From a virus, in IMG/VR virus record IMGVR_UViG_3300030098_004828, positions 177,754-241,753 of that record: a stretch of 64,000 nucleotides of DNA; one strand, given 5' to 3'. The notes under the pieces were generated by a model, which saw nothing but the letters and a program-made list of their open reading frames with translations, had not been told where the DNA came from and ran no database searches. This document shows positions 1 through 53,390 of the stretch, one piece after another. Position 1 is the stretch's first letter. Each line of letters begins with the position of its first letter. The translations under genes were made by a program, and so were the position numbers.

Positions 1-1
1 A

Positions 2-31800: not shown

Positions 31801-33192
31801 GATAGTTCAGATAAACCTGGTTCTCCTATTGTATTTACTAAACCTCAAGGTAAAAATCCTGCAAGATTGGTTATAGATTTAACTATGGGTACAGGTCTAG
31901 CAATACAACAAGATGAAAGTGATGTTTCAAATGTACCTGTAAAACTTATAACAGATAACGAATTAGTTAATGGTAATAGAGAAGAAATACGAAAATCTAA
32001 CTTAGCTGAATCAGTTAAAGTTGAAGTTGTTAAAAATGGTGTGTCTCAATATAATAATATGTCTAAGTTTCCTTATATATTAAAGTATACTTATACAGTT
32101 GGTTACGGACGTCAAAAACAACAAATTACTAAGCTGTTTAAACTAAATAAAATATATAGCCCGTTAAATGATAAAGATACAGGTTCAAGAAATAACTTAT
32201 TTAATGTTCTTGATTCAAATCAATTGGTGGGATATAGGGCTGAATATATAGATATAACAAATCAGCAAACAGGTTCTTCAGATCAATTTGCAGGAGGAGC
32301 TATAGCTGGAGCTTTACCATTTAACAATGTAGTAAAAGAAGATGCTAGTGAAGAAGTAAGTACAGATAAAGATAAAGGCAAGAAAAGTAAAGGAACTAAA
32401 CCTAAAGGTAATTATGAAAATACAATGTCTTCTGTTAAAGCTACTGAAAATGGTGTTGAAGTTACAACTGTCAATGGAAATACACATAACAGTAATGAAG
32501 TAGATCTTAATAATGCTATGAACCAAGAAGGTGAAGTAGGAAGAGGGGGATCAGTTCTTGATCTAGAAGGAATGGTTGGTAAAGAAGAAGAATTACCTTC
32601 TTTTGAAGAAGCAATAAATATAGTTTCAGAGATGGAAGATACTATTAATGAAATTGCAATGCAACCTGATAATGTAGCTAAAGTACTTTCAGGAGAAAAA
32701 ACTACTACATTAAGAACAAAAAATTTACCAAGTGGAGTGTATAATATTGGTGGACAATTATTTAATTTAACTAATAGAGGAAACTTAACAGTAGAAGAAG
32801 CAGGTGGTGTAGAAGCTATAACTAAATCAGAAGCATTTGCAAAAACAGGTCCTAAATTTTCATCAACAAAAAAATGGCTTGAAGGAGAAGGAAAACTATA
32901 TGTATATGATATTACACCTGTTAGTGAAACTATTAATGAGGCTGAAGCAGCTTTTGCTGAAACATATGATAGTGAATCTGGTCAATTAGAAATAAACTTT
33001 GGTGATGAGGTTGGAGCATCAAGTAATAAGCTGGAAAAGTTTATGGAATTATGGGAAGAATTAGATGTAGAAGAACAAAAAAAAATAATCCAACATTATG
33101 AATTAACAGCAATTGATAATGATATAGTAATTAATATGTTAATGGATAAATCACCAAAAGAAGTAATAGAACGTTTGAAAAAATGTAGTTAA
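16813..33192 (+). CDS. 5459-residue polyprotein: virion RNA polymerase core, two zincin domains, ASCH-like C-terminus
   Basis: One uninterrupted frame of 5459 residues. Residues about 270-330 and 590-630 hold hydrophobic helices. A first metallopeptidase-like site, HEAFH, starts at H2317, with a downstream YEEYMADEF supplying a likely glutamate ligand (gluzincin pattern). A second, HEQFH, starts at H3376, with EMEVSAN near E3400. The RNA polymerase signature lies at about residues 4090-4140: RIPTQDKHSAANM, then DFMP, then SGSDFDIDTQY with D4131, D4133 and D4135 as the probable Mg-binding aspartates of the second double-psi barrel. The order matches the R-x-P ... DFDGD region of multisubunit and crAss-like polymerases. 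Residues about 5275-5390 resemble an ASCH/PUA-like domain (VLSGEKTTTLR). Known crAss-like phages package such a polymerase to transcribe early genes. The zincins may cleave this or neighbouring proteins; that is inference. Confidence 0.85.
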   Translation: MAENLNNIPTVEDSGNLGSVPTETANIGPGQTPMFNLPSASINPANFAPDYKTALDQIDFSPLTERAYGPSPVNPETAKLIEMAAIPINRIASPAYNNINSTAPGRATGGYNPYSQQGQLDLTTKQGRNERLAQAFMNASDSTGADTTPGYQDPLVFGSKKFNYDRMMAHPNSGELGFHPLYDNESYYNKNSTWYDDSRRMGKQWRRMFSNAFMSSYRNIGDMLSGNWSWSDDEGAAIMEDAMRIGSSTRGGFTEWLHNTTLSSAYTAGIMTNIGVEMGVLALATAATGGTAAPATVTKAAQSLYSGVRGIFNSVKSVSAISNTLKAFRLPTVSKDFWNAFNATKVAQGISTAGQYTAKFLTPSTLKAFKDLRTSAAALDDMSQLAKTSKVFGAFYNDMRYINLAVAESRLEAGLVENETFSKLYQEFTHANGRPPNKEELALMRQQSIRAAKTTFMFNAPIIYLTNKVTIEKWMGKIKSLSGMVNMKGMAARFVKSPGKFGKDVYKGFGSMREMIMAGGLRHNAKYIGGAALRYAADGVNEGLQEVYQETVSAAATHYYAGLYQQPIAAGYDIFEVAMTKDSSDKAMQAVRHGLAHGPSWGVFASGFFTGMLVAPYSKVMFQGIPNLFQMATNNEQYQKDKKTREDWIKQTEKELNKMAEDPKFFFDPKKLNVIAQKQLDDEYWNFGIQGDILNFIDTKEHSMFQHIYTALQLGNLNEFRDYINDILQLDDQALEEAFMDKNTGKVKDGYTAEQLRKHFDGLNEKLDVIEDNYNNFDIDNPFDRNKYEEGTRDYYEEQIREYAFNHAKMQMIFNSNAMNDAASRKESIEAAITAITGMSDLIIDDLMILTSRRDIFQEINNLNRDIESLKYSKTPDDKKELAKLKKKKKLLEDFYEVLGDPENQHKSSKEYRNDKRIKQQGTPYKKRHHKIKERLKEMVEEKSLPDSIDDPKYGEKDTKDSIAKITSQDRDITYIYNLHKDGSISYTAKVKNDILDKEFKSEKQLESYIKKKEKTVYETVIDKKTGKPKKVGTYKTYVQEVMLKYKRDAKSMKKLMKVFTPYVEFLVKESGGKPINADQMKNVLSMIVDYGHLNFRISDMYKANQILSDPASLKRYSERISIPMIRLWKRHKRNQGRRVRKFVDKEIRKQYLKTLAKAGIFVDPKQVKHFLSVENLTQADIPTTFLTDTGEMLYDPVFGHTNQKQYEIMVQARQVLIDELIAPKEEKKDDGDGVDTKTIDDGSTAEDALNEDLTDDPQEKEEIKRIKDELNEFKSEDEDTIAILTREYEKYRKAAIALNMPILSQAQWLQQKGGGRAILQARYQAYSVYNEDEDKDQYETFNDWLRANVRSDKIQNIVEKFGLAPYAIMIEDVTSSKKLKDGVLLQGEVDASQGKYADYDMFIIKTPGAFVDGKQQFIYRIVNSKGKNVYDEGTYNNLNLPQEIFDNGYLTLGEANNAIKEILKAIPENTTFNFEGQTFKKGDRVSYKGKNYVVLNDAADFTSRGKLMVRDELFPEAEPITIAPGEFTGWKKEETSNQYFKEAIVVGENVQRLSHGKGMTFGKPMNHELNKNSEIKNEKDLQTVLKNMDPERRKKLRIQITRAKQPNKKHGESVNMNHGEINPVIKKGSKRFNVLLIDPDSGDVIGRLDGLDNFIFIDKKTGKSITPLEMTLDNVFDYFRNFKSKTAKQQLKEIKENYAQLTLIEELFDELLDETGTDKVTIGLDSLKKGKINKSLNISATDKGKELTEKLKDVFVHVTPGSKIFTERGKKDHETPIKELKYKYINQNGNMFILDTSNLGSDISDLEYSNQLAIREAIDRQGLGGLTGRYILAVRTPNNMYKGGYFHLVELRTTSMSQEDTQLLFNDIMSQQKLTVSTNINKRGKVLQDKKKGLGFKFNEAFNIDVQNKMYIAMPHGHNVNIILQPSGDITFKFSQTRDAGGQTFKVNLNRKTITDAKLESMQDLLDLASSGLREIFQNELNNNPQFIIPLGFGVELQASKLGGTPRNLNVSQIRNTIKADPTLTELEADGIVAIAPKDVTGNVFAQLRYNNTEEVNNLIASKNNKTQIEKDRANPSEIKNDLFTFERYQKAGWHHYPEAALKALAIKMLTDENLLTEDEKKIIAATKLEEKLKTGEIEVNVETNTEGGVGIVGDETQEELMQKKERIEEKIKEAEQQAEDKIWDEIEGANPNLSQEDKNDLFDKAMEEWEKSPDEGYVSLQNQKKEIDSKIKAGKIIRHDNYDGNDIVDLDEFIAWLKENLPGFISVEAIEQLGINLATNGVTVGTFAMTLKNIAGKINVEGKIYTGANSPFKYHEAFHAVYRMLLTQEEQKRLQGLAEKEVNKKLNSKSGYRYQGKTYKSLDTLLKDFRKESILYTQLSKSELKKRLYEEYMADEFDKFKVNPRNSKTNSEIKNFFTRLIEFIKSIFRNFSGNDLRSFYEKIDSGKFKNTTLQDNEFTRPGQEVNPAQEITQYATKIVIGQQTIKKSVLNRETNKNEIKPVNENIYMPADEEIQLRNNIAALFLKRMANNAELNKAALLQKTVQDYINIYNPKLSRHKKSADYRNLRRTLKAKLDGLKNAESDIILSVKNYLNLFDVNIDLANVSDKDIQDLEGFTPGGAKAWEASANKQGGLRKLSRDIRIFIGSTSMPASEALLEDQLYGITGVPTIDKETGKLVESDIEELVVSVDAATVYNGMLKSAGNSSTQLEVLQKMIMFGKNNPQTGAVVDNLMNKAGIQVRDYDRILMLDSSEPVGAIGPVSDPVFLNAVIKQMTQFTSDYLRIEENTNPETGAGVVSIYAANHADDISAQLDRWRKRFFTIKTYRWEHQKKAKRSREAAAGFANFISIINAGKALNEQQLEDKASEISKNLRNLTGIDLSVGFIKYSILHELNNKGVQLEPLQENFLNRNSDSYAMTLNDANKLAGLLQNNIDILSRSKEKFSKETDDRVKKEKVDHRKDGAEGSLRDMARGNAVFDENVGNTVFTDEKGDLIYSHQLPTYHLTKVAEINKKDIEGLDELRLGDGYLNANYLLNHPAFQQLVKENKFRIGRVSGKTKAWNVIDPDTKTKIATSQSEGIPYSEFGDADFLTSLINLKLAGFDSRNNKLFKKDVIKEDGTPYVLAPVFIRVIADASTGDFTYLPVLQSVKFNERGSIEFTDEFLDSMEDLIENEYNRILQNAEKLLGSNENVDTFLRKTIGTGEIVGFNEAVSKDDISDNPEQDRAFKITNNAQLITAMIAEGMTLKESIATLALRKAEQTMNLPEFVMDTTLENPDGSKRLGETEIKTTPVIDKKTKKKTQKVEQTIKLNEFTLDEFYDQFFDTKNLAAKATVQRLKENIEKRDGKKVKKEYVIDRIKKLIPDLQSAQAFVLLHEQFHIDENHYKDIEGKETLTEEMEVSANMYALEELQNRSKAKKQTTESPNILPKGIYKPNTEVKKILEDNALDNKSFDEVRKILEDAGIPLRDVIASRLNFEFDRFITRLIDLNIIEIKKNGDYVLNGLDPAFLNGFTNDKGQNLNEINEEFHFQPGELLFNLRQIFFDDYRNTKSINEIFFGDQAQVYKNVIEAIKRAKGSNASGMNVEFGFKWEVSDTLTIRPSYQIAAFTHKDVELSKQYSEGQQEVQDALVTMSIQGFAHWRAGLGYLKPAQAKLIDDLMQGKHVTVERLLGNGIDTTGLMHEGLGINSKKMVYDDGKSYIKMSVRVLTPDFTTDLDTKEPLPGMEKLHHLREKIEAKEEELLDKNKALGFDHFVPVIAVPESASKKFKQNLAEAESAYDETTILDRNIVMLDSKFMKEQQVVPSNKIEIVDPRQIINLLMNEQYDDSVTVTIRGEKYSVADLKRLFNTNVGLRRELDFTNKRNTILTFNDVNVDNHVYNRLFTDHLDKIKRGEVTIDLAAFRKFALNSLMAGKSKAQLLEFFESDNYNLNNPFTNPKFEELYFSFWKDGFTTKQPGYSLTLVSDVGYKVVKKVIEVDKETGEPTRWEVIPKQTWMAMTKNPKKFGLDKAPTLAMKDFTDQEAATFGKDNLKEGDYYLDNLRHNVMEYDSKGRPTGQRYTEFAMPPHHASILKYWKPGMPIGDVLGKGFGIRIPTQDKHSAANMKVVDFMPAYFGSSVIVPREITEISGSDFDIDTQYTHFKEFYVERKLVRTADEIEADWNKYVTTPYSTRRGGPLTTRRSDPEFEVEKSKRLYAAKMRRETGLNYTWNNRTEKFEDVYEGKFIEYGTADTIEKEYQEYIRYMIKQARKPGSAVSIAIDKYQSKQGVLVIEQFKAKDLEIYENSTWEEIQEYFNEKDDKQRYTNRLLLNVLKTEMHLPDSLDTYKEYKKFNNGSEMVGGVVPYKAAYNNRILDLKFGLLGNDNITKPRRDAAIAKGNPLAVQNQPADLDPLNDKDLQKKINEALKEDKDIAELIKETTPAVWQLIQVKAPLLAQQLEEGNLDIDNLYGKSIMKSANAMGTSIVGAAVQPNVVTAILNSFGIKIQTAYRYDTEIAPLYLNGITYDDYSTNFLIDPKTGKQDPGRRKAYVISAIITALTDNAKEQLTGKTGLQVGVLGIVVNMLALGVDTQTAFGMINHPAVKQILLESGGINVIGVAQGYIKSIKQAIKDKKYTPEQLKNKRTQVNEKDLWDDINKNSYELQTNIIENGLEYLPVLEQLVSIQYTKEYTSKIIKLIELLKAPPRNLWGMQTVMAAANDLGLDQTDYQIEVKDKTPPFDVRPIFENINNHMGELWQQVKELNAISPNVFIASSTMFGRIENIIHNSSSLFGEQGQRDREKIKNNIISYLMIGAYKAAGTKFNETFNNGLIYPQLEGVKITDIIGQIKKILENKEIDGKPRTNYFINFYIDTIKSKDGSEIDKVLTNTFTKISDAEIMRIQVSLLELMDPRDKNLSKLAQSLINYLIVKDGMQYRSGSFVNAVPAHLFENFIAHLDRIQDVFKKLEGINEMTSAERMALKDELSDIFGEDFNNFSLDMIDNMLTHISSNGHIKNNYHKDSSDKPGSPIVFTKPQGKNPARLVIDLTMGTGLAIQQDESDVSNVPVKLITDNELVNGNREEIRKSNLAESVKVEVVKNGVSQYNNMSKFPYILKYTYTVGYGRQKQQITKLFKLNKIYSPLNDKDTGSRNNLFNVLDSNQLVGYRAEYIDITNQQTGSSDQFAGGAIAGALPFNNVVKEDASEEVSTDKDKGKKSKGTKPKGNYENTMSSVKATENGVEVTTVNGNTHNSNEVDLNNAMNQEGEVGRGGSVLDLEGMVGKEEELPSFEEAINIVSEMEDTINEIAMQPDNVAKVLSGEKTTTLRTKNLPSGVYNIGGQLFNLTNRGNLTVEEAGGVEAITKSEAFAKTGPKFSSTKKWLEGEGKLYVYDITPVSETINEAEAAFAETYDSESGQLEINFGDEVGASSNKLEKFMELWEELDVEEQKKIIQHYELTAIDNDIVINMLMDKSPKEVIERLKKCS

Positions 33193-39555: not shown

Positions 39556-41415
39556 TTATTTGACTTCACAAGCACCCCCAGCACACGCTAGCTCCCCAGT
39601 TAGATTAGTTTCATCATCTTGTTCAATAACCTTAGACAGATCAATGTCCATTAATGATTTAACCATTTGATCATATTGTCCTACATATATATCTTCAAAC
39701 GGAGCTTGGGTATATGTACCACCATCATATGGAAGTACAGCTAGACCATTATAATGATCTCTGTTTTCCCACATCCAGTCACCAGCTAAATCCCAGTCTT
39801 CATCTTTTAAACTAATTGTAGCAGAAACATTATGAGTATTAGATCCAGATCTATGTCCAGTTTTCACCCATTCAGTTGCTACTTTCTTTACTCTTTCTAA
39901 TAGTTGGAAAGCAGATTCAGTTCTTAAGATAGAGCCTTCCGGGGCCTTTTGGGGTATACTTATAACTGCTGTATCATGACCACGGAAGACACAATCTTCT
40001 ACTAAATCAGGATGATTCTTAGCAAGATATCCATATATAGCTTCATTCTTTCCTACACGTATTCTTCTAATGTAGTAATCATTATGCCATGCATGAATAC
40101 CGGAACTAGTCCCTAATGTTAATGATGTTGTACCAGCAGGTTTTACTGTTGTTGTTCTAGCAGCTCTTCTGATACCAATTAATTTAGCAACACGTGCATT
40201 TTCTTTCTTTACTACTTTAGCAGCAGCTTCCATATCATAACCAAGTATTCTACCAGATCCTATACCAGTCATAGATACACCAATTAATGCATCTTTTTCT
40301 GTAGTCTCTTGCCATACTGGTCTGAGATAGTGGAAGTTAGTATATCCTGCTTGAAGTGTTCCTATAAATGCAGCAGCCTTAACTCTTAACTCTAAGTCTT
40401 CTTGAGATTCAATGTTACTTACATTAACTTCACAAAGATTACAAAATTGAAAAGGACGTAAAGCAATCTCACAACAAGGATTGGTTCCCCAATCTTTATC
40501 ATTGTTAAAGTAAATACCAGGTTCACCAGCTTTACTTAACTCAACTCTCTTCCATAGATCCATAAAGAAAGACTTAGTTATCTTATGTCTCATAAGCACT
40601 GCAGAGTTATTAGCTCTACCACGTTGTGGATTTAGTTCCCACCAAGCACCAGCTTTACAAGCAATCATTTCATTATCATCAGCACTAAATAAACTAATAA
40701 GAGCAGCACGCCTAATACCTCCAGCTAATACAGCATCAGCTATATGACAAACTATATCATGTACTTCTAAAGTACTAAGTTGATCACCATCTTCTTTACT
40801 ATCTAATATACCAGTAACTTTTAATATACATTCTTTTAATGGCTGTGGACCAGGGGCTTTACCACCAGAAGTTACTAGTCTAGCGCCTTTTGGTCTAATG
40901 TCTGAATAGTCAAATACTATACGTGAACTCTTACCGTTTAAATAAGACTTCATTAGAATCTTAATAGCATCTGCCCAACCTTCAATAGAGTCACCAATTA
41001 AATAACGTCTTGTTCTTTTTGGATATGGTTTATTTATTAATGAAAGTTTATCAACGTGATGTCTTTGTACAGAGTAACCAACACCTGTTCCTCCAAGTAA
41101 TAAGAACATAGTCTCAGCAAAAGCATCTATATGATCTATAGGAAGGTATGCACAGTTATATATTCTGTTAGGACTAATCTCAATTGGTTTACCACCAAAC
41201 TGCATAGACCTCATAGAGGGCAAAACCTTTTTATCAAATACATATTCATATACACCTTTTATATCATCCTTAAGTTTAGGATATGATTTAATATGCATAT
41301 TCATATTTCTAGTGACCAGTTCTTTCCAGGTCTCTCTTCTTTTTAATTCTGGATTATACCGTGCATATTTCATATGGACAGTAATATCACTTAGGATCTT
41401 GTTATTCAATTCCAT
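39556..41415 (-). CDS. nrdJ: Adenosylcobalamin-dependent (class II) ribonucleotide reductase
   Basis: This 619-residue enzyme reduces ribonucleotides to deoxyribonucleotides with a B12-derived radical, supplying dNTPs for phage replication. Family landmarks: NCAY (C88) and C325 align with the active-site disulfide pair C119/C419 of the Lactobacillus leichmannii monomeric reductase. NPCCEI gives N312, C314 (thiyl radical cysteine) and E316, and the C314-to-C325 spacing of 11 matches that enzyme. The C-terminus CAGGACEVK carries the CxxxxC shuttle pair (C611, C616). The phosphate-binding VKPAGTTSL segment is also present. The length is slightly shorter than the 739-residue model enzyme. It stands alone on the minus strand between two plus-strand blocks, with its own leader of about 170 bases shared with the divergent 41586 gene. 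The host must provide or import cobalamin. Confidence 0.95.
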   Translation of the reverse strand: MELNNKILSDITVHMKYARYNPELKRRETWKELVTRNMNMHIKSYPKLKDDIKGVYEYVFDKKVLPSMRSMQFGGKPIEISPNRIYNCAYLPIDHIDAFAETMFLLLGGTGVGYSVQRHHVDKLSLINKPYPKRTRRYLIGDSIEGWADAIKILMKSYLNGKSSRIVFDYSDIRPKGARLVTSGGKAPGPQPLKECILKVTGILDSKEDGDQLSTLEVHDIVCHIADAVLAGGIRRAALISLFSADDNEMIACKAGAWWELNPQRGRANNSAVLMRHKITKSFFMDLWKRVELSKAGEPGIYFNNDKDWGTNPCCEIALRPFQFCNLCEVNVSNIESQEDLELRVKAAAFIGTLQAGYTNFHYLRPVWQETTEKDALIGVSMTGIGSGRILGYDMEAAAKVVKKENARVAKLIGIRRAARTTTVKPAGTTSLTLGTSSGIHAWHNDYYIRRIRVGKNEAIYGYLAKNHPDLVEDCVFRGHDTAVISIPQKAPEGSILRTESAFQLLERVKKVATEWVKTGHRSGSNTHNVSATISLKDEDWDLAGDWMWENRDHYNGLAVLPYDGGTYTQAPFEDIYVGQYDQMVKSLMDIDLSKVIEQDDETNLTGELACAGGACEVK

Positions 41416-41585: not shown

Positions 41586-41933
41586 ATGGGAATAAATAAA
41601 ACAAATGTACCTGGATCTTTTGAGAAACAGGTTATTGCTACTGACAAAACTACTAAAGCAGTTAGAAGAGGTCTGGGTGATTATGGTGCCAAGTTTGTTG
41701 GTGATGATGCTGTACATGTAGGTAAATGGTATGCTATTCAAGGTCTTCAATCAGCCGTTCTGGATGTTTCAGATTGTGAATTTAATGGTGTGGCTGGAAA
41801 TTTAACTTCTGGTGATCAAGTAGATGTTAGTGCAGGAGATATAAAAATACCTGATGGTTGTACTATATTTCTTAATGCTAATAAACTATCATTAGTAACC
41901 GGAGGACACGCAATCTTTTATAGAAGACCTTAA
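41586..41933 (+). CDS. Small beta-rich decoration-type protein
   Basis: A 115-residue protein with alternating hydrophobic and polar residues typical of an all-beta fold. It ends IPDGCTIFLNANKLSLVTGG then AIFYRRP, resembling the C-terminal halves of the small proteins at 44666 and 49861 (a loop with a turn, then an aromatic F-F/Y strand). It is the first gene after a candidate promoter, one base before the LamG-like gene. A head-decoration or fibre-associated protein is likely; no close family is identified. Confidence 0.6.
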   Translation: MGINKTNVPGSFEKQVIATDKTTKAVRRGLGDYGAKFVGDDAVHVGKWYAIQGLQSAVLDVSDCEFNGVAGNLTSGDQVDVSAGDIKIPDGCTIFLNANKLSLVTGGHAIFYRRP

Positions 41934-41934
41934 T

Positions 41935-42855
41935 ATGCTTAATTTAGTTAATAGTCTTGGTATACAATCTGATGGTAGAATACAATATGATCCTGCCCAA
42001 ATTGCTACACATGATAAAGATGCTAGTTTGACACTTACAGGATGGTTTGATTTTAATGATGGATCTACAATTTTTGAAGACACAGGAGGAACAGATGCTG
42101 CAGAAGATGGTGATAATATAGCACGAATAAATAATAAAGCTTATGATGGATTAGGAGCAAGTTCAGCATCAATAAATGAATTTGCATCTCAAGGAACTGC
42201 TGGTGCAAGACCTGTATGGACTGCCCCTAGTGGTCTTAATGCTGGTTATGCAACATTTGCTGATGATGTTTTAGAATCTAGTGTACTACAAGGAAATGCA
42301 TCTACTGGCAGAATGGGTGGTGTTAATTTTAATCCTCAAGGGTTTACATTTATGGCAGTTGTAAAAGGTAATCCAACAGGTATAACCGGACCTGCTGAAC
42401 CTATATTCACATTTACTGACCGAACTAGATCTGATTCAGGACTTGAGTATGGAGCATCTGCACTTGGAAATGATATTGTATTTAATTTTAATACTAAAAT
42501 GAATACACCTTTTTCAACTAGTACCGTTAGACCTAATACTGATGTAACATGTATTACATTAACAGGTGGTACATCAACTAGTCCAACTAATAGTTTAAAG
42601 TGGTATATAGATGGTGATCTAGAAAACACTGATACAACAAATTACTCTGCATTTGGACGTGATTTAACTCAGAATGATCCTTCTGTTGGCTTTAATATAG
42701 GATGGTGTTTTAGTCTTAATAGGTCTGTTACTAAAGGTTGGAATGGAAGAATTTATGAAATTGTTATGTATGATAAGTGTTTAAGTGATTATCAACGGCA
42801 TCAATTACATAGATATGTAGGAACAAAGTATGATATTAGTATGACAATATCTTAA
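41935..42855 (+). CDS. LamG/concanavalin-like tail or fibre protein
   Basis: A 306-residue protein. The GWFDFNDGST opening, the GFTFMAVVKG strand and the C-terminal block GRIYEIVMYDKCLSDYQRHQ followed by VGTKYDI match the Laminin_G_3 (concanavalin-like jelly roll) domain common in phage and Bacteroidetes surface proteins. Such domains bind glycans, so a receptor-binding or virion decoration role is plausible. It has no signal peptide, consistent with a virion component. It directly follows the 41586 gene. Confidence 0.75.
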   Translation: MLNLVNSLGIQSDGRIQYDPAQIATHDKDASLTLTGWFDFNDGSTIFEDTGGTDAAEDGDNIARINNKAYDGLGASSASINEFASQGTAGARPVWTAPSGLNAGYATFADDVLESSVLQGNASTGRMGGVNFNPQGFTFMAVVKGNPTGITGPAEPIFTFTDRTRSDSGLEYGASALGNDIVFNFNTKMNTPFSTSTVRPNTDVTCITLTGGTSTSPTNSLKWYIDGDLENTDTTNYSAFGRDLTQNDPSVGFNIGWCFSLNRSVTKGWNGRIYEIVMYDKCLSDYQRHQLHRYVGTKYDISMTIS

Positions 42856-42874: not shown

Positions 42875-43183
42875 ATGGAGTACTACATCTTTACAGTTAT
42901 AATTACAGCACTAACAGTATTGTTTAGTACAGAGGCATGGAGGTATTATAAATCTAAATTAGATATTAACTACAATAAAGAATCTATGGCAGCTAAAAAA
43001 GAAAGAGAGTATACAAATAGTCTTGTAGAAAGAGTATGTAAGCTTGAAGATCTTTTGGGAGAAAGCTCTGCAGAAAAAGATTTTTTAAGAGAGAAAGTAT
43101 TAGCATTAACAGAAGAGGTAGCAGGTTTAAGAGAAAGAGTTAAGTTTCTTGAAGCTGAAAATGAACGTTTAAAATTATTATAG
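42875..43183 (+). CDS. Membrane-anchored coiled-coil protein (i-spanin-like architecture)
   Basis: A 102-residue protein. Residues about 4-22 (YIFTVIITALTVLFSTEAW) form one transmembrane helix, followed by a charged heptad-rich coiled coil (LVERVCKLEDLLGE, then LREKVLALTEEVAGLRERV). One N-terminal anchor plus a coiled coil is the layout of inner-membrane spanins and of some phage membrane scaffolds, but no sequence family is recognised. It starts a chain of five closely packed genes, three of which have an N-terminal membrane or export segment. Confidence 0.6.
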   Translation: MEYYIFTVIITALTVLFSTEAWRYYKSKLDINYNKESMAAKKEREYTNSLVERVCKLEDLLGESSAEKDFLREKVLALTEEVAGLRERVKFLEAENERLKLL

Positions 43184-43187
43184 TAAT

Positions 43188-43427
43188 ATGAATAACGAAA
43201 TAGAAAAATACAATCAGAAAGAAAGAGCTGTTGCTAAAGCAACAAAAAATAATATGTTATTAAAAGCTGCTTTAATATTACAAAGCGAAAACAGTGAGTT
43301 AAAAGTTCAAAATGAATTACTTCAAACTAAAGTTAATAGAGGAAATTTAATTGCCGATGCTAGAAAAGTTAGCAATGTTAAAGCAAATCAAAGGAAAACA
43401 CCCACACGTTATGGTGGATCAAGATAA
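43188..43427 (+). CDS. Small basic coiled-coil protein
   Basis: A 79-residue protein with a central heptad pattern (LKAALILQSENSELKVQNEL) and a basic tail ending RKTPTRYGGSR. No membrane segment. It sits four bases after one membrane-anchored coiled-coil gene and five before another, so it may join them in a hetero-oligomer; this is inference from context. Confidence 0.55.
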   Translation: MNNEIEKYNQKERAVAKATKNNMLLKAALILQSENSELKVQNELLQTKVNRGNLIADARKVSNVKANQRKTPTRYGGSR

Positions 43428-43432
43428 TTATT

Positions 43433-43717
43433 ATGGCAAAAGAATTAAATGAAGACACAGGTTTTAAGGTAAGTATAAAAACACTTATAGGAATAGGGGT
43501 TGCAATGGCTACAGTTATTGGTATGTGGTTTGCACTTCAAGCAGACATTGAAGAAGCTAAAATGCTTCCAGAACCACCAGCACCAGATGTAACAAGAATG
43601 GAGTTTGATATGAAGGATAAAAATATACGTCTCACTATTGAGAATACTCAAGATGATGTGACAGAAATTAAAGAAGATTTAAGACGTATAGAAGACAAAA
43701 TTGATGATTTAAAATGA
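43433..43717 (+). CDS. Membrane-anchored coiled-coil protein
   Basis: A 94-residue protein with one transmembrane helix at about residues 16-34 (LIGIGVAMATVIGMWFALQ), a Pro-rich hinge (MLPEPPAPD) and a C-terminal coiled coil (VTEIKEDLRRIEDKIDDLK). The layout recalls XhlA-like or spanin-like phage lysis accessories, but the order (membrane first, coil last) and sequence do not allow a firm assignment. Its stop overlaps the next start by four bases (ATGA), indicating translational coupling. Confidence 0.6.
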   Translation: MAKELNEDTGFKVSIKTLIGIGVAMATVIGMWFALQADIEEAKMLPEPPAPDVTRMEFDMKDKNIRLTIENTQDDVTEIKEDLRRIEDKIDDLK

Positions 43718-44037
43718 AAAACCTAACATATATATTTTTACTATTTGCAGCTACAGTTAGTGCTCAAATAGAAGTTGTTCAATATAATGCGGGATGGAAT
43801 TCTAGCAATGATGTTGAATGGGTAGAAGAACTTACAGATTGTGAAATAAATTATATTGATATAGCTGCTAAGCCAAAACAGCAAGCAAAAAATAAAATAG
43901 AAGTAGTTCCTACTATCATAATATTTGATGAAGGTGAGGAAATAGAAAGATTTCAAGCAGATATATCTTTTAGCATAAAAGCAACAAGAGAAGAAATACA
44001 AGAAATAATAGATGAATTAATTGTAAATAAATTTTAA
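43714..44037 (+). CDS. Exported thioredoxin-fold protein lacking the CxxC pair
   Basis: A 107-residue protein. A signal peptide is visible (YIFLLFAATVSAQ), with cleavage likely after VSA. The mature part follows the thioredoxin plan: a VVQYNAGWN strand and turn where the active site would be, a DCEINYIDI strand, then VVPTIIIFDEGEEIERF with the conserved cis-proline (VPT). The WCxxC motif is absent: GWNSSND stands in its place, with one cysteine further on. It is therefore unlikely to be a disulfide oxidoreductase and may act as a periplasmic binding or adaptor module. It is coupled to the upstream membrane gene. Confidence 0.65.
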   Translation: MKNLTYIFLLFAATVSAQIEVVQYNAGWNSSNDVEWVEELTDCEINYIDIAAKPKQQAKNKIEVVPTIIIFDEGEEIERFQADISFSIKATREEIQEIIDELIVNKF

Positions 44038-44038
44038 A

Positions 44039-44134
44039 ATGAGAAAATTTTTATGTAAATTATTGTATATAGTTAGTTTTAAAACTGTATGTTGGCACAT
44101 CTGTAAAGAAGATAAGTGCTGTAAAGAAAAATAA
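44039..44134 (+). CDS. Cys-rich microprotein (31 aa)
   Basis: An ATG frame one base after the preceding gene. It begins MRKFLCKLLYIVSFK and ends with a CWHIC then DKCCKEK cluster (six cysteines in 31 residues). The N-terminal half is hydrophobic and basic. It is short, and no family is known to me. The tight placement and high cysteine content make it more than a random frame, but it may be spurious. Confidence 0.35.
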   Translation: MRKFLCKLLYIVSFKTVCWHICKEDKCCKEK

Positions 44135-44176
44135 CCACAAGTTATAACTAGTTAATAAATTTAAAAAAAGAATAAT

Positions 44177-44647
44177 ATGGCTTCAATAAAGACAACTTTT
44201 TCTATTATTGGTACAGGTGCCTCTTCAACAAATCCAATTAGCATTACACCACAAGCTGCTACAATTACTGTAACAGATCCTGAAGAAACAGGAACATTAG
44301 ATGTTAGTGCAACTGGAGTTTCTGGAGATGAACAGATTATAATTAATCCTACTGCTTCAGATAGTACAGCAATGGGTGCAACTGCTGCTGGTTCTTGGGT
44401 TTACTTAAGAAACGGTGCTACAACTGGTTCATCTTTACTAAAGGTTCAAGCTTACTTAAAAGCAGCTGAGCAAGCAGGTGGAGCAGCAGCTATGTGGGTT
44501 ACAATATGTTCACTTAAACCAGGTGAATTTATGTGGTATAGCCCAGTTAATGTTACTGATGGTGGAACAGATATAAAAAGAGGTTGTAAGGTAGTTAATT
44601 CAACTGCTACTGCGACAACTTGTGAATTCGCAAGGTTTAATAGATAA
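44177..44647 (+). CDS. Small beta-sandwich virion (decoration-type) protein
   Basis: A 156-residue Thr/Ala/Gly-rich protein with no signal peptide. A central AGSWVYLRNGATTGSS strand-turn and a LKPGEFMWYSPVN motif parallel the equivalent parts of 44666 (AYMFLKMTGDSGDTG, then RHNDFCFFRVPGG) and 49861 (AYVYVVNTASDAAHT, then EAGEWGFFAIPNG). The three look like diverged members of one fold. Head decoration or fibre tip is the most likely role. Confidence 0.6.
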   Translation: MASIKTTFSIIGTGASSTNPISITPQAATITVTDPEETGTLDVSATGVSGDEQIIINPTASDSTAMGATAAGSWVYLRNGATTGSSLLKVQAYLKAAEQAGGAAAMWVTICSLKPGEFMWYSPVNVTDGGTDIKRGCKVVNSTATATTCEFARFNR

Positions 44648-44665
44648 TTTTAAAAAATAATAATA

Positions 44666-45046
44666 ATGGCAAATTTAATATGTACATTTACCGCTCAAGA
44701 AACAAGTCTGGGACCTGATAAAGTAACTATTAGTGAGTTAAATAAAAGTTTTGTTGTAGAAACTCCTACTATTTCAGCTGGTGCTACCGTTGCTGCAGGT
44801 GTAACTAAAACAATTTTTACTGCTCCAACTAAGGATGCTTATATGTTCCTTAAAATGACAGGTGATAGTGGAGACACCGGTTGTGTTGTTGATGTTAATG
44901 CTCAGCCCGCTGCTACATTAAGACATAATGATTTTTGTTTTTTCAGAGTTCCTGGTGGTTTAGCAGTAACTGTTGAAAATAAAGCAGGATCTACTTCTAC
45001 TATTGAGTGGTCAACTTGGGAATGTGAGACTCAAGTAGCACGATAA
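44666..45046 (+). CDS. Small beta-sandwich virion (decoration-type) protein
   Basis: A 126-residue protein related in layout to its neighbour at 44177 and to 49861: a hydrophobic YMFLKM strand, a Gly/Asp turn, an HNDFCFFRVPGG strand-loop and a beta-rich end (STSTIEWSTWECET). No export signal. It lies 12 bases before the signal-peptide-bearing 45059 gene, so virion-type and exported proteins alternate here. Confidence 0.6.
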   Translation: MANLICTFTAQETSLGPDKVTISELNKSFVVETPTISAGATVAAGVTKTIFTAPTKDAYMFLKMTGDSGDTGCVVDVNAQPAATLRHNDFCFFRVPGGLAVTVENKAGSTSTIEWSTWECETQVAR

Positions 45047-45058
45047 TACTAATCTACA

Positions 45059-48000
45059 ATGAAGTCCTTTATAAGACATAGTCTAATATGGATTGTGTTA
45101 TTCCTGTGTTCTACAGTGAATGCTCAATCCATAGACTCTTGGATAGAGATAGAATTTCAATTTGATAATTATGCAGAAGAAGTATCATGGAGTTTATATA
45201 ATTCCACTGATACTATTTCTATTGATACAGGTTTTTACACAGCAGGTCAACCTAATGCATATGAATTTATAGAATTAGATTCAGGAGATTATACATTTCA
45301 ATTAATGGATTCATGGGGTGATGGTTTATCATGGCCTCAAGATGGTTATTGTTTAATATCCAACGAGTGTCAAGATACTCTATTTTATGCATCAGGTAAT
45401 TATGGTTTAGGTTTAATTGAATCTCTTACAATTGCTCCATGTGCTCCTCCAGAGCCTGCAGTAATTGATTGTATGGATGAAAACGCAACAAATTATAATT
45501 CAGATGCTGATGTAAATGATCAGTCTTTATGTGAATATCCACCATGTGAAGGTTGGGGTGAACCTTTTGTAGATCAGATATGTGATGGTGGTCAAGCACT
45601 TCTTTATTGGAATTGGGAAGCTTCAGATAATCCTAATTGCAATGTAATTCAAATAACTTATAGCGGTGAAAATACTAACTCTTATAACTTTGATGTTAAT
45701 ATAGACAATGGTATATGGGGTGTTTATACTGGCAATGGTCAGATGCCTCCTAATTGGGAAGAAGAATATTCATTCCAAGCAATGTTTGCTGATAGTACTA
45801 TGTCAGATACTTTAACGTATACACCATATCCGTGTACACAAGGATGTACAAATGATGATGCTCCTAATTATAATCCATGGGCTACAGTAGACGATGGGTC
45901 ATGTGGAGGTCAAGCATGTGATGTAGGATATACTTCTATAACAATAGATATAACTTTAGATAATTGGCCAAGTGAAACAGGTTGGTCATTAATTAGTGGT
46001 GGTGTAATAGATGAACACATTGATGGAGATTATAATTATCAAGATATAGGTCAAACATTTTCATATTCTTACTGTGTAATGGAAGCCGGATTTGAATTTA
46101 TTATATCAGATACATATGGTGATGGTTTAGCTGGTTCAACTACAGGCGGAGATCTGGATGGAGATGTTCTTATTAGAGGTTGTAATGGAGATACAATAAC
46201 TCAATTATCTAACGGTAATTGGTTAAACGCAGCTCAAGAAAATGTAGGTGTTGGTTTTGGTAGTGTAGCATATTCAGGATGGCAACAAGCTATTATATGT
46301 GAAACAAATGATGTTGCAGGATGTACTAATCCAATATATCAAGAATTTAATCCAGAAGCTGTTATAGATGACGGCTCATGTGTTACAGAACATATATATG
46401 GTTGTATAAATGAAAATGCATTTAACTATGATGAAAATGCAACAGCAATGGATATATATCCTAACTGTAATTATGAACTGTGGATAGGAGATGCAGCTGC
46501 TGATGGTTGGGGTAATTCATTCTTAGGAGTTGTACAAGGTGACAATCAATGGACATTTACAATGGGTCCAGGAGAATATGAACAAACTTTTCCTATTTGG
46601 TTAGAGACAGATAAACCTGTAAAAATATTTTACTTTGAGGTAGGTGGAGCACAAACTCCTCCAGAAGAAGTGGCTTTTCAAACACTACATAATTCGTTTA
46701 AATTAACTAATGCTGATGATGTTATATTAATGTATGAAGGATGGAATCCTTTTGCAAACAATGGTCAAGGTGCACTTCAAGCTTTTGAACCTCCATTCTT
46801 TCAAACATATCAAGCAATGCCTTTCTGTGGTACACTTTGTATCCCTACAGTGGAAGGTTGTTTAGATGCTACAGCACTAAACTATAATGAAGAAGCTAAT
46901 ACAGATGACGGTAGTTGTATAGAGATTATAGAAGGTTGTACTAATGAATTAGCTTTTAACTATGATGAAGAAGCTAACTATGATGACGGGTCATGTGAAG
47001 CTGTAGTTGTTGGATGCATGGATGAGATAGCATGGAACTACAATGAGGATGCTAATACAGATGGTGGTGATTGTATATACTTAGGTTGTACTGATTCTTC
47101 AGCATGTAATTTTAATCCAAATGCAAATGCAGATAGTGGAGGGTGTACTTATGCTGATCAGTATTATAACTGCAGTGATGTATGTATAAATGATGCTGAC
47201 TCAGATGGAATTTGTGATGAACTTGAAATACTAGGATGTACTAGTGTAGCTGCTATTAACTATATGCCGGAAGCAACTGATGATGATGGTAGTTGTGTTG
47301 GTATAGTATATGGCTGTACAGACCCTACTGCTTTTAATTATGACGCTACAGCTAATACAGACAATGGTTCATGTGTGCCTGTAATATACGGGTGTATAGA
47401 TAGTACAGCATTTAACTATGATCCAGCTGCTAATACAGATAATGGAACTTGTGTAGAATTTGTATACGGTTGTACTGATACTACAGCTCTTAACTTTGAT
47501 CCATTAGCAAATACATTAGATAACTCTTGTTGTTATCTTGGAGGATGTATGGATTCTACTGCATTAAACTATGATGAAGATGCTTGTTTTGATGATGGTA
47601 GTTGTATAGTTATAATAGAAGGATGTGCAGATCCTAATGCATACAACTATAATCCGCTAGTTAATTTACCAGACAATAGTACGTGTCTTTATGATGCAGG
47701 TTGTTATAGTGGACCTGGTGAACCTTATTGGTTAAATGATCCTTGCTATGCTTGGGTTATAGATATAGATAGTTATTGTTGTACAGAAATTTGGGATGAG
47801 ACTTGTCAGTCTATGTATAACTATTGTGAAGATGGCTGGCCTGTTGATTTAGATGAATTATCAGGTAGTGATATAATTGTATACCCTAATCCTACAGCAA
47901 ATACATTTACTATAGAAACAAGATTAGATATTGATGTAGAACTATATAATATAGTAGGAGAACTTATAGAAACAGATAATATTAAAAGAATAGATATATC

Positions 48001-48079
48001 AGATTATCCTGATGGAATATATAATTTGATTATTACATATGATAAAATAAGAATAACAAAAAAAATAATTAAACTATGA
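45059..48079 (+). CDS. Secreted 1006-aa repeat protein with T9SS type A sorting domain
   Basis: A signal peptide (IWIVLFLCSTVNAQS, cleavage likely after VNA) directs Sec export. The mature protein has two beta domains ending in DSWGDGL and DTYGDGL (near residues 90 and 360), a further beta domain near 475-590, and about 14 repeats of about 25-40 residues of the form GC-x4-A-x-N(Y/F)(N/D)-x2-A-x-DDGSC. The last 70 residues match the Por/T9SS type A C-terminal sorting domain: IIVYPNPTANTFTIE, then VELYNIVGE, then DISDYPDGIYNLII and a basic end (RITKKIIKL). In Bacteroidetes this signal sends the protein through the outer membrane for release or surface attachment. A phage gene carrying it is unusual. 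Its repeats match those of the virion-type protein at the left edge. The stop overlaps the following lipoprotein start. Confidence 0.85.
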   Translation: MKSFIRHSLIWIVLFLCSTVNAQSIDSWIEIEFQFDNYAEEVSWSLYNSTDTISIDTGFYTAGQPNAYEFIELDSGDYTFQLMDSWGDGLSWPQDGYCLISNECQDTLFYASGNYGLGLIESLTIAPCAPPEPAVIDCMDENATNYNSDADVNDQSLCEYPPCEGWGEPFVDQICDGGQALLYWNWEASDNPNCNVIQITYSGENTNSYNFDVNIDNGIWGVYTGNGQMPPNWEEEYSFQAMFADSTMSDTLTYTPYPCTQGCTNDDAPNYNPWATVDDGSCGGQACDVGYTSITIDITLDNWPSETGWSLISGGVIDEHIDGDYNYQDIGQTFSYSYCVMEAGFEFIISDTYGDGLAGSTTGGDLDGDVLIRGCNGDTITQLSNGNWLNAAQENVGVGFGSVAYSGWQQAIICETNDVAGCTNPIYQEFNPEAVIDDGSCVTEHIYGCINENAFNYDENATAMDIYPNCNYELWIGDAAADGWGNSFLGVVQGDNQWTFTMGPGEYEQTFPIWLETDKPVKIFYFEVGGAQTPPEEVAFQTLHNSFKLTNADDVILMYEGWNPFANNGQGALQAFEPPFFQTYQAMPFCGTLCIPTVEGCLDATALNYNEEANTDDGSCIEIIEGCTNELAFNYDEEANYDDGSCEAVVVGCMDEIAWNYNEDANTDGGDCIYLGCTDSSACNFNPNANADSGGCTYADQYYNCSDVCINDADSDGICDELEILGCTSVAAINYMPEATDDDGSCVGIVYGCTDPTAFNYDATANTDNGSCVPVIYGCIDSTAFNYDPAANTDNGTCVEFVYGCTDTTALNFDPLANTLDNSCCYLGGCMDSTALNYDEDACFDDGSCIVIIEGCADPNAYNYNPLVNLPDNSTCLYDAGCYSGPGEPYWLNDPCYAWVIDIDSYCCTEIWDETCQSMYNYCEDGWPVDLDELSGSDIIVYPNPTANTFTIETRLDIDVELYNIVGELIETDNIKRIDISDYPDGIYNLIITYDKIRITKKIIKL
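45467..47693 (+). repeat. About 14 GC...DDGSC Cys-pair protein repeats
   Basis: In the translated 45059 gene, units such as GCTNDDAPNYNPWAT + VDDGSC, GCLDATALNYNEEAN + TDDGSC and GCIDSTAFNYDPAAN + TDNGTC recur, each with one Cys near each end. Spacing is irregular early and tandem late (from about nt 46855). The DNA copies are diverged, so this is an old amplification rather than a recent tandem duplication. Confidence 0.85.
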
Positions 48080-48267
48080 AATATTTAGCAGCATTGTGGG
48101 TTTTAGTAATTGTAGGTTGCGGATTATTTAATCCTGCAAAATATAATCCTAATCCAAGACCAGTAGTAGAAGAGTGTTGTGCTAAAGATTCAATAAGAAT
48201 TGATACAATAAGATTAACAAATGGTGTTGATCATATTATTATGTTAGATACAGTAAAAATTAAATAA
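48076..48267 (+). CDS. Small lipoprotein (possible o-spanin)
   Basis: A 63-residue protein with a lipoprotein signal: hydrophobic stretch LAALWVLVIVGCG, where IVGC is a lipobox with Cys15 as the lipidated residue. The mature part is Pro/Asn-rich, has a CC pair (EECCAKD) and ends in short beta-like repeats (SIRIDTIRL, DHIIMLDTVKIK). Small lipoproteins next to phage membrane genes are often outer-membrane spanins, but the spacing to any i-spanin candidate (42875, 43433) is large. It overlaps the T9SS protein gene by four bases. Confidence 0.65.
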   Translation: MKYLAALWVLVIVGCGLFNPAKYNPNPRPVVEECCAKDSIRIDTIRLTNGVDHIIMLDTVKIK

Positions 48268-48278
48268 AATTTAAAATT

Positions 48279-48530
48279 ATGCCACAAGGAAAAGGAACTT
48301 ATGGGTCTCAAGTAGGTAGACCAAGAAAAACACAAAAAGGAGGTGCTTCTTGTTCATTAAAAGTTAAAGGTGTAAACATTTGTTCATTAACCAAAAGACA
48401 ACAAACTTCATTGCAAAAACATGCAGAACATCATACTAAAAAACATATTCAAGCTATGGTAAACGCAATGAACAATGGTGCTAGTTTTACTCAATCACAT
48501 AAAGATGCAATGCAAAAAGTAGGAAAATGA
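48279..48530 (+). CDS. Small basic phage protein of unknown function
   Basis: An 83-residue protein beginning MPQGKGTYGSQVGRPRK, an opening I recognise from small virion-associated proteins of marine phages. Two cysteines (GASCSL, NICSL) and a His-rich helix (KHAEHHTKKH) could bind metal or nucleic acid. The stop overlaps the next ATG (ATGA). The role is unknown. Confidence 0.6.
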   Translation: MPQGKGTYGSQVGRPRKTQKGGASCSLKVKGVNICSLTKRQQTSLQKHAEHHTKKHIQAMVNAMNNGASFTQSHKDAMQKVGK

Positions 48531-49585
48531 GAATAATTTTATACATATTATTACTTTTATCATTTACGATAAATGCACAAGAAGAAAGTAAATTTAAAAA
48601 AGAACTTAAAAAAACTTTTAAATTTTCTACATTCTATGCTGCAGTAAATGGTGGTACTTCTATTTCAGATCAAAATGTATATTCTGTATTAGATCAACTT
48701 CAAACCGATGTAATAGAAACTCCATTTGATTACGCACTAACTCTAGGTGTAAGAAAGATACAAAGATTTGGATACGAAAACAAGGCTAACACATTCAAAG
48801 ACGGTACAGAAACTTCATACTCTGATGCCGCTACAATAGGACGAACTAAAGGATTTGAGTTTTTATTTGAGATGGATTACCAAAGAAGATTTGGTGATAC
48901 ATATATAGATCAGAATCACTTTCTACGATACTTAGCAGATAAATGGGTTGTTAAGGTGGAGTATTTACAAGATGGCTTTGCTGATGTAGAATACATGGAA
49001 GCATCACAACGATATAGACAAAAGATAGGTAAGAGATTTTCACTTACTGCAGGGACAGCACAAAGGATCTCCGAACCTTATGGATTTGATCCGTTAGCTC
49101 AGTGGTTGTTATCCAACGGGAACTTACACTACACAAACCTTGCTTTAGAGGAAGGCTACTCAATTGGTTTTGCACCAACAGGAATAGAATACTTAGACCC
49201 TAGTGGAGCGGTCGTGGCTACAAGCAGTGAAGTTTGGGAAGAGGTGGTAATACCGCAAATGCTTGATGACTATGTTAAAGCAAGTAAAGATGCATTACCA
49301 GTACAATGGTGTCACTCTTTAGTAATTGGCTTTGACTATTATTACTATACAAAAAAGATCTGGTTACACTCATGGGGTAATGTGCTTCCTGTTCATCTTA
49401 ACACAGGAGGAGAATACTCATATCACAATTTTAATAATGGTAATTGGATAGATTATTCTGGTGGTTTAATATTTGGATATAAGATCAATAAGAACTTAGG
49501 TATCTTTGTTGAGGGTAAATATAACAAATATTGGAATAGAAACTGGCATGATTTCAAGTTTGGAATAAATTATATTATTCTTTAG
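48527..49585 (+). CDS. Exported outer-membrane beta-barrel-like protein
   Basis: A 352-residue protein with a signal peptide (IILYILLLLSFTINAQ). The mature part alternates hydrophobic and aromatic residues and has long aromatic strands (VIGFDYYYYTKKIWLHSW; SGGLIFGYKINKNLGIFVEG). It ends FKFGINYIIL, a C-terminal beta-signal pattern of outer-membrane barrels, though the terminal residue is Leu rather than Phe. It is coupled to the preceding small gene. A phage-encoded outer-membrane protein could block superinfection, change permeability, or help release; none is shown by sequence. Base composition and codon use look slightly less A/T-biased than its neighbours, hinting at separate acquisition. 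Confidence 0.65.
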   Translation: MRIILYILLLLSFTINAQEESKFKKELKKTFKFSTFYAAVNGGTSISDQNVYSVLDQLQTDVIETPFDYALTLGVRKIQRFGYENKANTFKDGTETSYSDAATIGRTKGFEFLFEMDYQRRFGDTYIDQNHFLRYLADKWVVKVEYLQDGFADVEYMEASQRYRQKIGKRFSLTAGTAQRISEPYGFDPLAQWLLSNGNLHYTNLALEEGYSIGFAPTGIEYLDPSGAVVATSSEVWEEVVIPQMLDDYVKASKDALPVQWCHSLVIGFDYYYYTKKIWLHSWGNVLPVHLNTGGEYSYHNFNNGNWIDYSGGLIFGYKINKNLGIFVEGKYNKYWNRNWHDFKFGINYIIL

Positions 49586-49860: not shown

Positions 49861-50223
49861 ATGGCAACATTAAACACAACAGTTAAATTAGAGACATCTT
49901 CTTCAGTAGCAGGTGTGTTAAAATTAGATTTTACTAATACACAACCTTTTACAATTGGAGATGTTGCTGGTGATGATCTTACTGTTAATGCATTAACTTC
50001 TCTTGTAGCAACTGGATATGGTGCTACAGCTTATGTTTATGTAGTGAATACAGCAAGTGATGCTGCACATACAATAGCATTAATGACTGATGCTGGTGTA
50101 CAATGGGGTACTTTAGAAGCCGGTGAATGGGGATTTTTTGCAATTCCTAATGGAACAGGATTTAAAGTACAAGCTGATGCTGGAGTACCTGTGCTTAATT
50201 ATGTTATAATGAAAAAAGCATAA
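49861..50223 (+). CDS. Small beta-sandwich virion (decoration-type) protein
   Basis: A 120-residue protein without export signal. ATAYVYVVNTASDAAHTIAL, then WGTLEAGEWGFFAIPNGTGF, then VQADAG forms a compact beta pattern seen in small head-decoration-type proteins of large Bacteroidetes phages. It shares the plan of 44177 and 44666. It lies four bases before a Cys-containing small gene. Confidence 0.6.
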   Translation: MATLNTTVKLETSSSVAGVLKLDFTNTQPFTIGDVAGDDLTVNALTSLVATGYGATAYVYVVNTASDAAHTIALMTDAGVQWGTLEAGEWGFFAIPNGTGFKVQADAGVPVLNYVIMKKA

Positions 50224-52988: not shown

Positions 52989-53390
52989 ATGGGAGTATTA
53001 AATAAATTATTCTCTGGAGGAGCTAGTAAACTAGTTGAATCAGTAGGTGGTGTTATAGATAATTTAGTGACGACAGATGAGGAAAAGCTTGATGCAAAGA
53101 GAAAGCTAAAAGAACTAATCATGAACCATGAGGTTCAGATGGAAAAAAATATAACTGACCGTTGGACTGCAGATATGAATTCTGACAGTTGGTTAAGTAA
53201 AAATGTAAGACCTATGGTCCTCATTTTTTTAATTGTTTGTACTATGATATTAATCTTTATTGATGCTGGTACAATTAAATTTGAAGTAGAAGAAAAATGG
53301 ACAGATTTATTACAGTTAGTACTGATCACTGTAATAGGTGCTTATTTTGGAGGAAGATCAGTAGAAAAGTTTAATAAAAAAAAGAAATAG
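52989..53390 (+). CDS. Holin of the 3TM (Holin_3TMs) type
   Basis: A 133-residue protein. The N-terminus is an amphipathic helix (LNKLFSGGASKLVESVGGVI) with a charged KRKLKELIM linker. The family hallmark SWLSKNVRPMVLIFLIV opens the first clear transmembrane helix (to about residue 93), and WTDLLQLVLITVIGAYFGG forms the second, with a Lys-rich end. This is the layout of GTA-type 3TM phage holins, which permeabilise the inner membrane at the end of infection. No endolysin gene is adjacent, so the matching lysin lies outside the window or in one of the large proteins. Confidence 0.8.
   Translation: MGVLNKLFSGGASKLVESVGGVIDNLVTTDEEKLDAKRKLKELIMNHEVQMEKNITDRWTADMNSDSWLSKNVRPMVLIFLIVCTMILIFIDAGTIKFEVEEKWTDLLQLVLITVIGAYFGGRSVEKFNKKKK

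Follow-up and report, generated by a model that had tools for sequence, protein, structure and literature searches.

What might a phage gain from a run of genes whose products, taken together, seem to reach from the inner membrane of its host to the cell exterior? The question is raised by positions 42,875 to 49,585 of a 64,000-nucleotide stretch of viral DNA (hereafter, the window), which covers positions 177754-241753 of the 245,646-base IMG/VR record IMGVR_UViG_3300030098_004828 (contig G000:C1). An earlier note, made from the letters alone, had read these 7 kb as a previously undescribed envelope-acting module. This proposal held in part: a set of genes conserved far past close relatives and strictly linked does lie here, but the 7 kb are not one unit, and the core of the module, as delimited by sequence comparison, is four genes. 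They encode a predicted inner-membrane coiled-coil protein (TMCC94), a protein with a thioredoxin fold (Trx-like), a predicted cargo of the type IX secretion system (T9SS) and a putative outer-membrane barrel. All the genes that had been named are open, on the + strand and at the positions given for them, and their spacing (mostly -4 to +18 nt, in the form of short gaps or ATGA overlaps) bears out the view that they are mostly coupled. The core features, in window positions, are the following.

43433-43717, + strand: TMCC94, 94 aa, predicted inner-membrane protein, N-in/C-out, with a Pro-rich linker and then a periplasmic coiled coil
43714-44037, + strand: Trx-like, signal peptide and thioredoxin fold, with NxxN for CxxC at nt 43798-43809
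45059-48079, + strand: T9SS cargo, 1006 aa, with a signal peptide, beta-sandwich heads, a Cys-rich stalk, a Cys-rich base and a type A sorting domain
45128-45463, + strand: cargo head domain 1 (aa 24-135), where the protein varies most
45917-46303, + strand: cargo head domain 2, similar to head domain 1
46856-47683, + strand: cargo stalk, holding most of the protein's 12 GC-x-D-x2-A-x-NY-x3-AN repeats
47684-47854, + strand: cargo base domain (aa 876-932), where conservation is highest
47870-48079, + strand: T9SS type A C-terminal sorting domain
48527-49585, + strand: barrel, 352 aa, with a signal peptide, 12 predicted strands and an insertion at residues 183-259

Do these four genes belong together? 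An IMG/VR search with the barrel gave 60 loci, and one with TMCC94 gave at least 588 relatives, of which the best 80 were kept; after the profiles had been rebuilt from all loci, linkage was counted at the 53 TMCC94 loci flanked by 5.5 kb on each side, partners being sought within 6 kb. Trx-like and the T9SS cargo were each present at 53/53 loci and the barrel at 52/53, the sole locus without it (L087) carrying another protein, of 710 aa, at a possible barrel position. When TMCC94 was dereplicated at 90% (59 clusters), the proportions were 31/31, 31/31 and 30/31. Anchored on Trx-like, the other three genes were found at 24/24 full loci and, anchored on the barrel, at 31/31. The locus sets are not independent, as they share contigs and all derive from similarity searches with one family, that of the window. 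This manner of sampling, together with the fact that phage late genes often stay together, speaks for unrelated genes brought into one late operon by chance or hitch-hiking. We nevertheless regard such an origin as scarcely credible, given that the four-way linkage is ~100% from three anchors while the other neighbours change (the next family, a holin-like protein, occurs at 25/53 TMCC94 loci), and that the order of the genes has changed without a split of the set.

Among the matches listed (over 500), three of the 24 possible orders were seen, all of them rotations of T9SS-barrel-TMCC94-Trx (28/13/10). Related phages, in which the earlier note had proposed to check for a conserved gene order, thus appear to keep the set and to vary its order; the idea of a module thereby survives one refuting condition of that note, a lack of conservation in relatives. 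Two arrangements can be told apart among the 60 barrel loci: group 1, which is window-like, has TMCC94-Trx ... T9SS-barrel, and group 2 has mostly T9SS-barrel-TMCC94-Trx, in genomes with few other neighbours common to group 1. Parsimony on a quick barrel tree gives ~10 order changes; branches with strong support require no more than a few of them. Gene contexts around the core vary; counting unrelated contexts by neighbours in common led to chaining and yielded no firm number. Within the set, TMCC94 and Trx-like nearly always abut, and the cargo gene often overlaps that of the barrel by 1-4 nt, so that cargo and barrel are often coupled.

A tblastn search with several members in 50,697 phage records returned no clear relative of the barrel or of TMCC94; Trx-like matched only ordinary thioredoxins, and the cargo matched in its repeats only, in cyanophages. 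Synechococcus phage S-CAM3 and the marine virus AG-345-P14 carry repeats of a similar kind. Among 84,980 bacteria and archaea (one genome per species), matches were confined to four contigs, almost all of which belong to metagenome-assembled genomes and are probably of phage origin themselves, and in 296 genomes of one such order the starting genome alone gave a full match.

The record that holds the window consists, by self-comparison, of two related collinear genomes placed head to tail (~124.8 kb and ~120.9 kb, with a junction near 124,690-124,783 and a block identity of 66-91%), the window lying in the second. Contigs with the module in a window-like arrangement reach up to 114-122 kb, which points to a true genome of ~120 kb. 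Most likely, two strains were joined in assembly to give a chimeric record, and to class it as a jumbo phage by its length would be wrong. The other half of the record (hereafter, the sister genome) served as a natural relative for comparison. Because of the T9SS domain and of signal peptides ending in AQ, we infer a host among the Bacteroidota.

What, then, are the four proteins? Of the two membrane-anchored coiled-coil proteins that had been claimed, TMCC94 stands: one transmembrane (TM) helix is followed by a putatively periplasmic heptad repeat (0/300 shuffles score as high), and K+R before the TM helix exceeds that after it in 55/59 relatives, as expected of an N-in protein. It is 100% identical in the sister genome, with a ratio of non-synonymous to synonymous substitution rates (dN/dS) of 0.011. 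The second protein, TMCC1, likewise has one TM helix, but its heptad score is weak (29/300 shuffles as high), and its charges place the coil probably in the cytoplasm. None of Pfam, PHROGs, NCBIfam and PADLOC assigned a function to TMCC94 or to the barrel, and profile searches of the PDB with either gave nothing useful.

The exported thioredoxin-fold protein without CxxC was correctly recognised. Its fold is supported by a profile match to 2vim (E 8.2e-10), the window protein alone scoring below the Pfam gathering threshold, and NxxN replaces CxxC in 58/61 copies counted (NxxK in 1). The two copies with CxxC are probably separate, ordinary thioredoxin genes, on the minus strand at loci L086 and L087. 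To judge by these residues, the usual CxxC redox chemistry is excluded, and the presence of Asn at both positions throughout the family suggests a structural role. The idea that Trx-like exchanges disulfides with the T9SS track (PMC12635249) was weighed and given up, as no Cys is conserved.

The AlphaFold2 (AF2) model of the barrel has 12 beta strands (predicted local distance difference test, pLDDT, 66; predicted template-modelling score, pTM, 0.60), in keeping with the beta-barrel-like outer-membrane protein of the earlier note. Its fold matches are mostly small outer-membrane barrels (KdgM, NanC, OmpG and Tsx at Z ~11); generic 12-strand folds are among them (EstA, KdgM, NanC, OmpG, LpxR and OMPLA), with FadL ranked below the 12-strand barrels. 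In a library of viral folds (BFVD), it matched A0A516LKJ4, a 342-aa viral protein (E 4.8e-17, 18% identity); four of the Flavobacterium phages FPSV, examined as possible owners, yielded nothing. A His/Ser pattern of a lipase was also sought and the idea dropped, the Ser of HSWGN not being conserved. The barrels of the two sister genomes are nearly identical (dN/dS 0.083). Members of the family end in ...NYIIL/NYVIF with no Cys, and no column has Cys in over a third of them.

The cargo carries the clearest signature of its route. Its type A sorting domain, which upholds the earlier claim of a T9SS substrate, scores above two curated cut-offs (Pfam PF18962, 2.8e-10; NCBIfam TIGR04183, 2.6e-9), is found in 23/23 cargoes scanned (E<=0.01), and in its fold matches 8glk_D by Foldseek (template-modelling score 0.79 by target, root-mean-square deviation 2.2). 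A Sec signal peptide, with cleavage by rule of thumb after MKSFIRHSLIWIVLFLCSTVNAQ and before S, opens the protein, and a crude scan detected a signal-like start in 31/47 complete relatives. The cargo is therefore predicted to be exported by Sec and to bear a type A T9SS sorting domain. Between these ends lie two or three beta-sandwich head domains, of which the first two are related, a stalk of ~26-aa repeats of the GC-x-D-x2-A-x-NY-x3-AN type with paired Cys (12 in the window cargo, 8-19 in relatives), and the base. Base identity is 92/83/77% (within group 1, within group 2 and between groups) and that of head 1 is 60/47/42%. Thus, between groups, the barrel stays ~60-66% identical while the cargo drops from 77% at the base to 42% at the head; the sorting domain, at 47%, lies below the base. 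Between the sister genomes, head codons 41-100 show more non-synonymous than synonymous difference (pN 0.42 vs pS 0.26), and the rest of the cargo is clearly under purifying selection. As read from sequence, the cargo, TMCC94 and the barrel show the conservation expected if a constant mount bears a variable tip.

Shape alone would also suit other roles. The cargo is built as head, stalk and base, with fibronectin type III and calcium-adhesin SiiE repeats among its weak Foldseek matches, and the barrel resembles the small porins named above. The module might hence change adhesion or uptake, the cargo gathering cells as an adhesin or the barrel feeding the infection as an extra outer-membrane pore. 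We find this improbable: such generic folds do not reveal a function, a match to a ligand-binding family was not obtained, and uptake would need neither TMCC94 nor a thioredoxin fold without its redox motif. That the proteins are virion parts, for instance for late assembly at the envelope, is suggested by the position of the genes in the late, structural region and by three repeats of the stalk type in a 4217-aa, probably structural open reading frame (ORF; record positions 170876-183529, window 1-5776). This we hold to be very improbable in view of the signal peptides, the T9SS domain in every cargo, the outer-membrane barrel and the lack of any PHROG structural match.

The reading that we prefer, at a confidence a little short of even, is that of a phage trans-envelope module, probably late, which uses the T9SS of the host to present a phage protein on the surface of the infected cell; for the display mechanism taken by itself, the chances seem evenly balanced. 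The cargo would pass Sec and then the host's T9SS. The barrel is predicted to lie in the outer membrane, TMCC94 to extend its coil into the periplasm from an anchor in the inner membrane, and Trx-like to be periplasmic. After export, the invariant cargo base may dock on the barrel, while TMCC94 and Trx-like may either tie the barrel to the inner membrane or help and guard the Cys-rich cargo in the periplasm, and the stalk would lift the variable head off the cell surface. The purpose could be to mask that surface, so that neither progeny nor rival phages re-adsorb (superinfection exclusion). Exclusion or masking is our first choice of purpose because of the variable cargo head and of a like suggestion that the authors of the Cryophage study made for its variable T9SS cargo (PMC7468147); as the purpose of the module, it is still rather doubtful. 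Between exclusion, lysis timing and release, all raised in the earlier note, sequence does not decide. The fuller proposal, a widespread four-protein trans-envelope machine in which the host T9SS raises a variable phage protein and which, with a dedicated barrel and an NxxN thioredoxin fold, controls attachment to the cell, is offered tentatively.

Several points weigh against such a display. The host's PorV normally handles a type A cargo, which is linked to anionic lipopolysaccharide (A-LPS), so that such a cargo can do without a barrel of its own. For the phage barrel, 12 strands are predicted, against 14 in PorP/SprF; none of 32 barrels matched PorP_SprF at E<=1, and neither did two members in NCBIfam. 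Confidence is low for the cargo model (pTM 0.32) and moderate for that of the barrel, as given by the scores above. The divergence of the head may reflect allelic exchange and not selection. The docking of cargo on barrel and the tether among the four proteins are steps that we infer, and the one indication that the module is probably expressed late is the position of its genes.

How much of the remaining 7 kb takes part? The other genes of the locus, and two further features downstream, are as follows.

42875-43183, + strand: TMCC1 (accessory, group 1 only), one TM helix, coil probably cytoplasmic
43188-43427, + strand: cc2 (a variable accessory gene), with 38% identity to its counterpart in the sister genome
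44039-44134, + strand: sm31, a 31-aa Cys-rich basic ORF directly 3' of Trx-like, mostly in group 1
44177-45046, + strand: two accessory genes for decoration-like proteins, of 156 and 126 aa
48076-48267, + strand: lipo63 (accessory, group 1), a 63-aa lipoprotein with lipobox VGC
48279-48530, + strand: x83 (accessory), 83 aa and basic, phrog_31838, with no copy in the sister genome
49635-49784, + strand: p49, a small protein near the core in 21/53 loci, its place differing between groups
52989-53390, + strand: holin (phrog_3427), the closest lysis-type gene, 3.4 kb downstream

TMCC1, cc2, lipo63, x83 and proteins of 120-170 aa are confined to group 1 or variable within it. Together with the decoration-like genes, the four named ones look, from this distribution, like lineage-specific passengers beside the core. 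Between the sister genomes, cc2 and the first decoration-like protein are 35-39% identical and lipo63 is 90.5% identical. The plain lipobox of lipo63 agrees with the lipoprotein that had been listed; the same four annotation resources gave it no function, and it is the only lipoprotein family modelled, found near TMCC94 at 1/53 loci. By contrast, the label of virion decoration proteins given to 44177-45046 did not survive, since neither Pfam nor PHROGs gave a family match and the label reflects size and place alone. The list of genes was also incomplete, as it lacked sm31, which is kept in relatives. The 49-aa p49 (MNWINSW...LNFGFEI) precedes the cargo in one group and follows the barrel in the other.

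Some of these neighbours bring in lysis. TMCC94 has the topology of an inner spanin and, like the inner subunit of two-component spanins (Rz/Rz1), combines one N-terminal TM helix with a periplasmic coiled coil; it could join the barrel across the periplasm and breach the Bacteroidota outer membrane, with the cargo weakening or opening the surface layer. TMCC1 has weak holin/LysB-like matches, a holin lies downstream in the window, most group 2 loci have a small two-TM holin-like protein after Trx-like, with endolysin-like or amidase genes close by, and a lysis-type family occurs within 6 kb in 16/31 dereplicated loci. However, the other 15/31 are without any family tested, and in the genome of the window the same genes for a holin-like protein and a hydrolase are ~78 kb from the module, both of which weaken a general link to lysis. 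Unlike Rz/Rz1, the module has no constant lipoprotein partner (lipo63 is absent from most groups, and some loci have unrelated short lipoproteins), its constant outer partner being the barrel, which in most members is not a lipoprotein; nor has a long surface protein with a variable head any evident role in lysis. We therefore judge a lysis module unlikely. Among the neighbours of loci without a tested lysis family, a PHROG scan gave a few endolysin and tail-fibre matches, so that the late region is the common setting.

Further observations concern these surroundings. A cluster of an SNase-like nuclease, a small holin-like protein and an endolysin-like hydrolase, which lies beside the module in other phages, is found at record positions 140891-143866 and 14990-16622. 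In some group 2 loci, a holin-like gene is followed by a 62-aa lipoprotein with a C-terminal TM helix, the layout of a short unimolecular spanin (L051:2763-2951). Within the window, a ribonucleotide reductase gene (phrog_367, 39556-41415), kept in group 1 relatives, is the lone minus-strand gene of the late plus-strand region, and an ORF of 5459 aa at 16813-33192 is of unusual length for a phage. Proteins of 115-306 aa at 41586-42855, 44177-45046 and 49861-50223 change fast, those of the first two regions being 35-62% identical to the sister genome; none has a family match apart from a weak structural match of the 306-aa protein.

Is a display module of this kind already known? T9SS surface proteins held by a barrel of their own with a periplasmic link are exemplified by SprB-SprF and PG1035-PorP-PorE, and the genes of SprB-SprF and of other type B cargo-carrier pairs are coupled (PMC9143113, PMC12618676, PMC12635249). 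The phage set shares with SprB-SprF of Flavobacterium johnsoniae a T9SS surface protein, an outer-membrane barrel of its own and a reach into the periplasm (PMC12635249, PMC12618676), but its cargo has a type A (TIGR04183) and not a type B sorting domain, it includes an inner-membrane partner, and it is phage-borne. Its barrel differs from SprF/PorP in having no match to their family and no Cys-x-Cys in its C-terminal tail; against the 14 strands of those FadL-type barrels, 12 are predicted for it in the model of moderate confidence. With PorE-PorP-PG1035 of Porphyromonas gingivalis, it shares the chain of surface protein, outer-membrane barrel and periplasmic link (PMC9143113), although PorE is a peptidoglycan-binding lipoprotein, whereas in the phage a coiled coil of the inner membrane together with a thioredoxin fold would form the link. 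Among phages, the closest case is Cryophage, whose type A T9SS cargo varies between strains; that cargo consists of enzymes and a PA14 protein, and the T9SS passages of the report mention no linked barrel, TM-coil protein or thioredoxin (PMC7468147).

Eight proteins of the locus had no match in the anti-phage defence systems of PADLOC-DB, a resource that is not designed to cover exclusion proteins of phages. The receptor-blocking exclusion proteins Llp of T5 and Cor are single small phage lipoproteins that act at the host outer membrane against further adsorption, whereas in the module described here four proteins would act together and depend on the T9SS. The literature searched held no previous account of such a module. 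Because no known phage system has the set, and because the nearest cellular systems differ from it in defining features, the four genes would constitute a system new in kind, built from known kinds of parts.

Even without a known function, the strict linkage of four genes, two of whose families have no annotated relative, makes the module a clear target. If the proposed display is correct, phages of common ocean Bacteroidota would share an envelope system that hijacks a secretion route peculiar to this phylum, which would add a new case of a T9SS cargo with its own outer-membrane partner. Exclusion, release and changes of the host surface in these uncultured phages would then be open to direct test.

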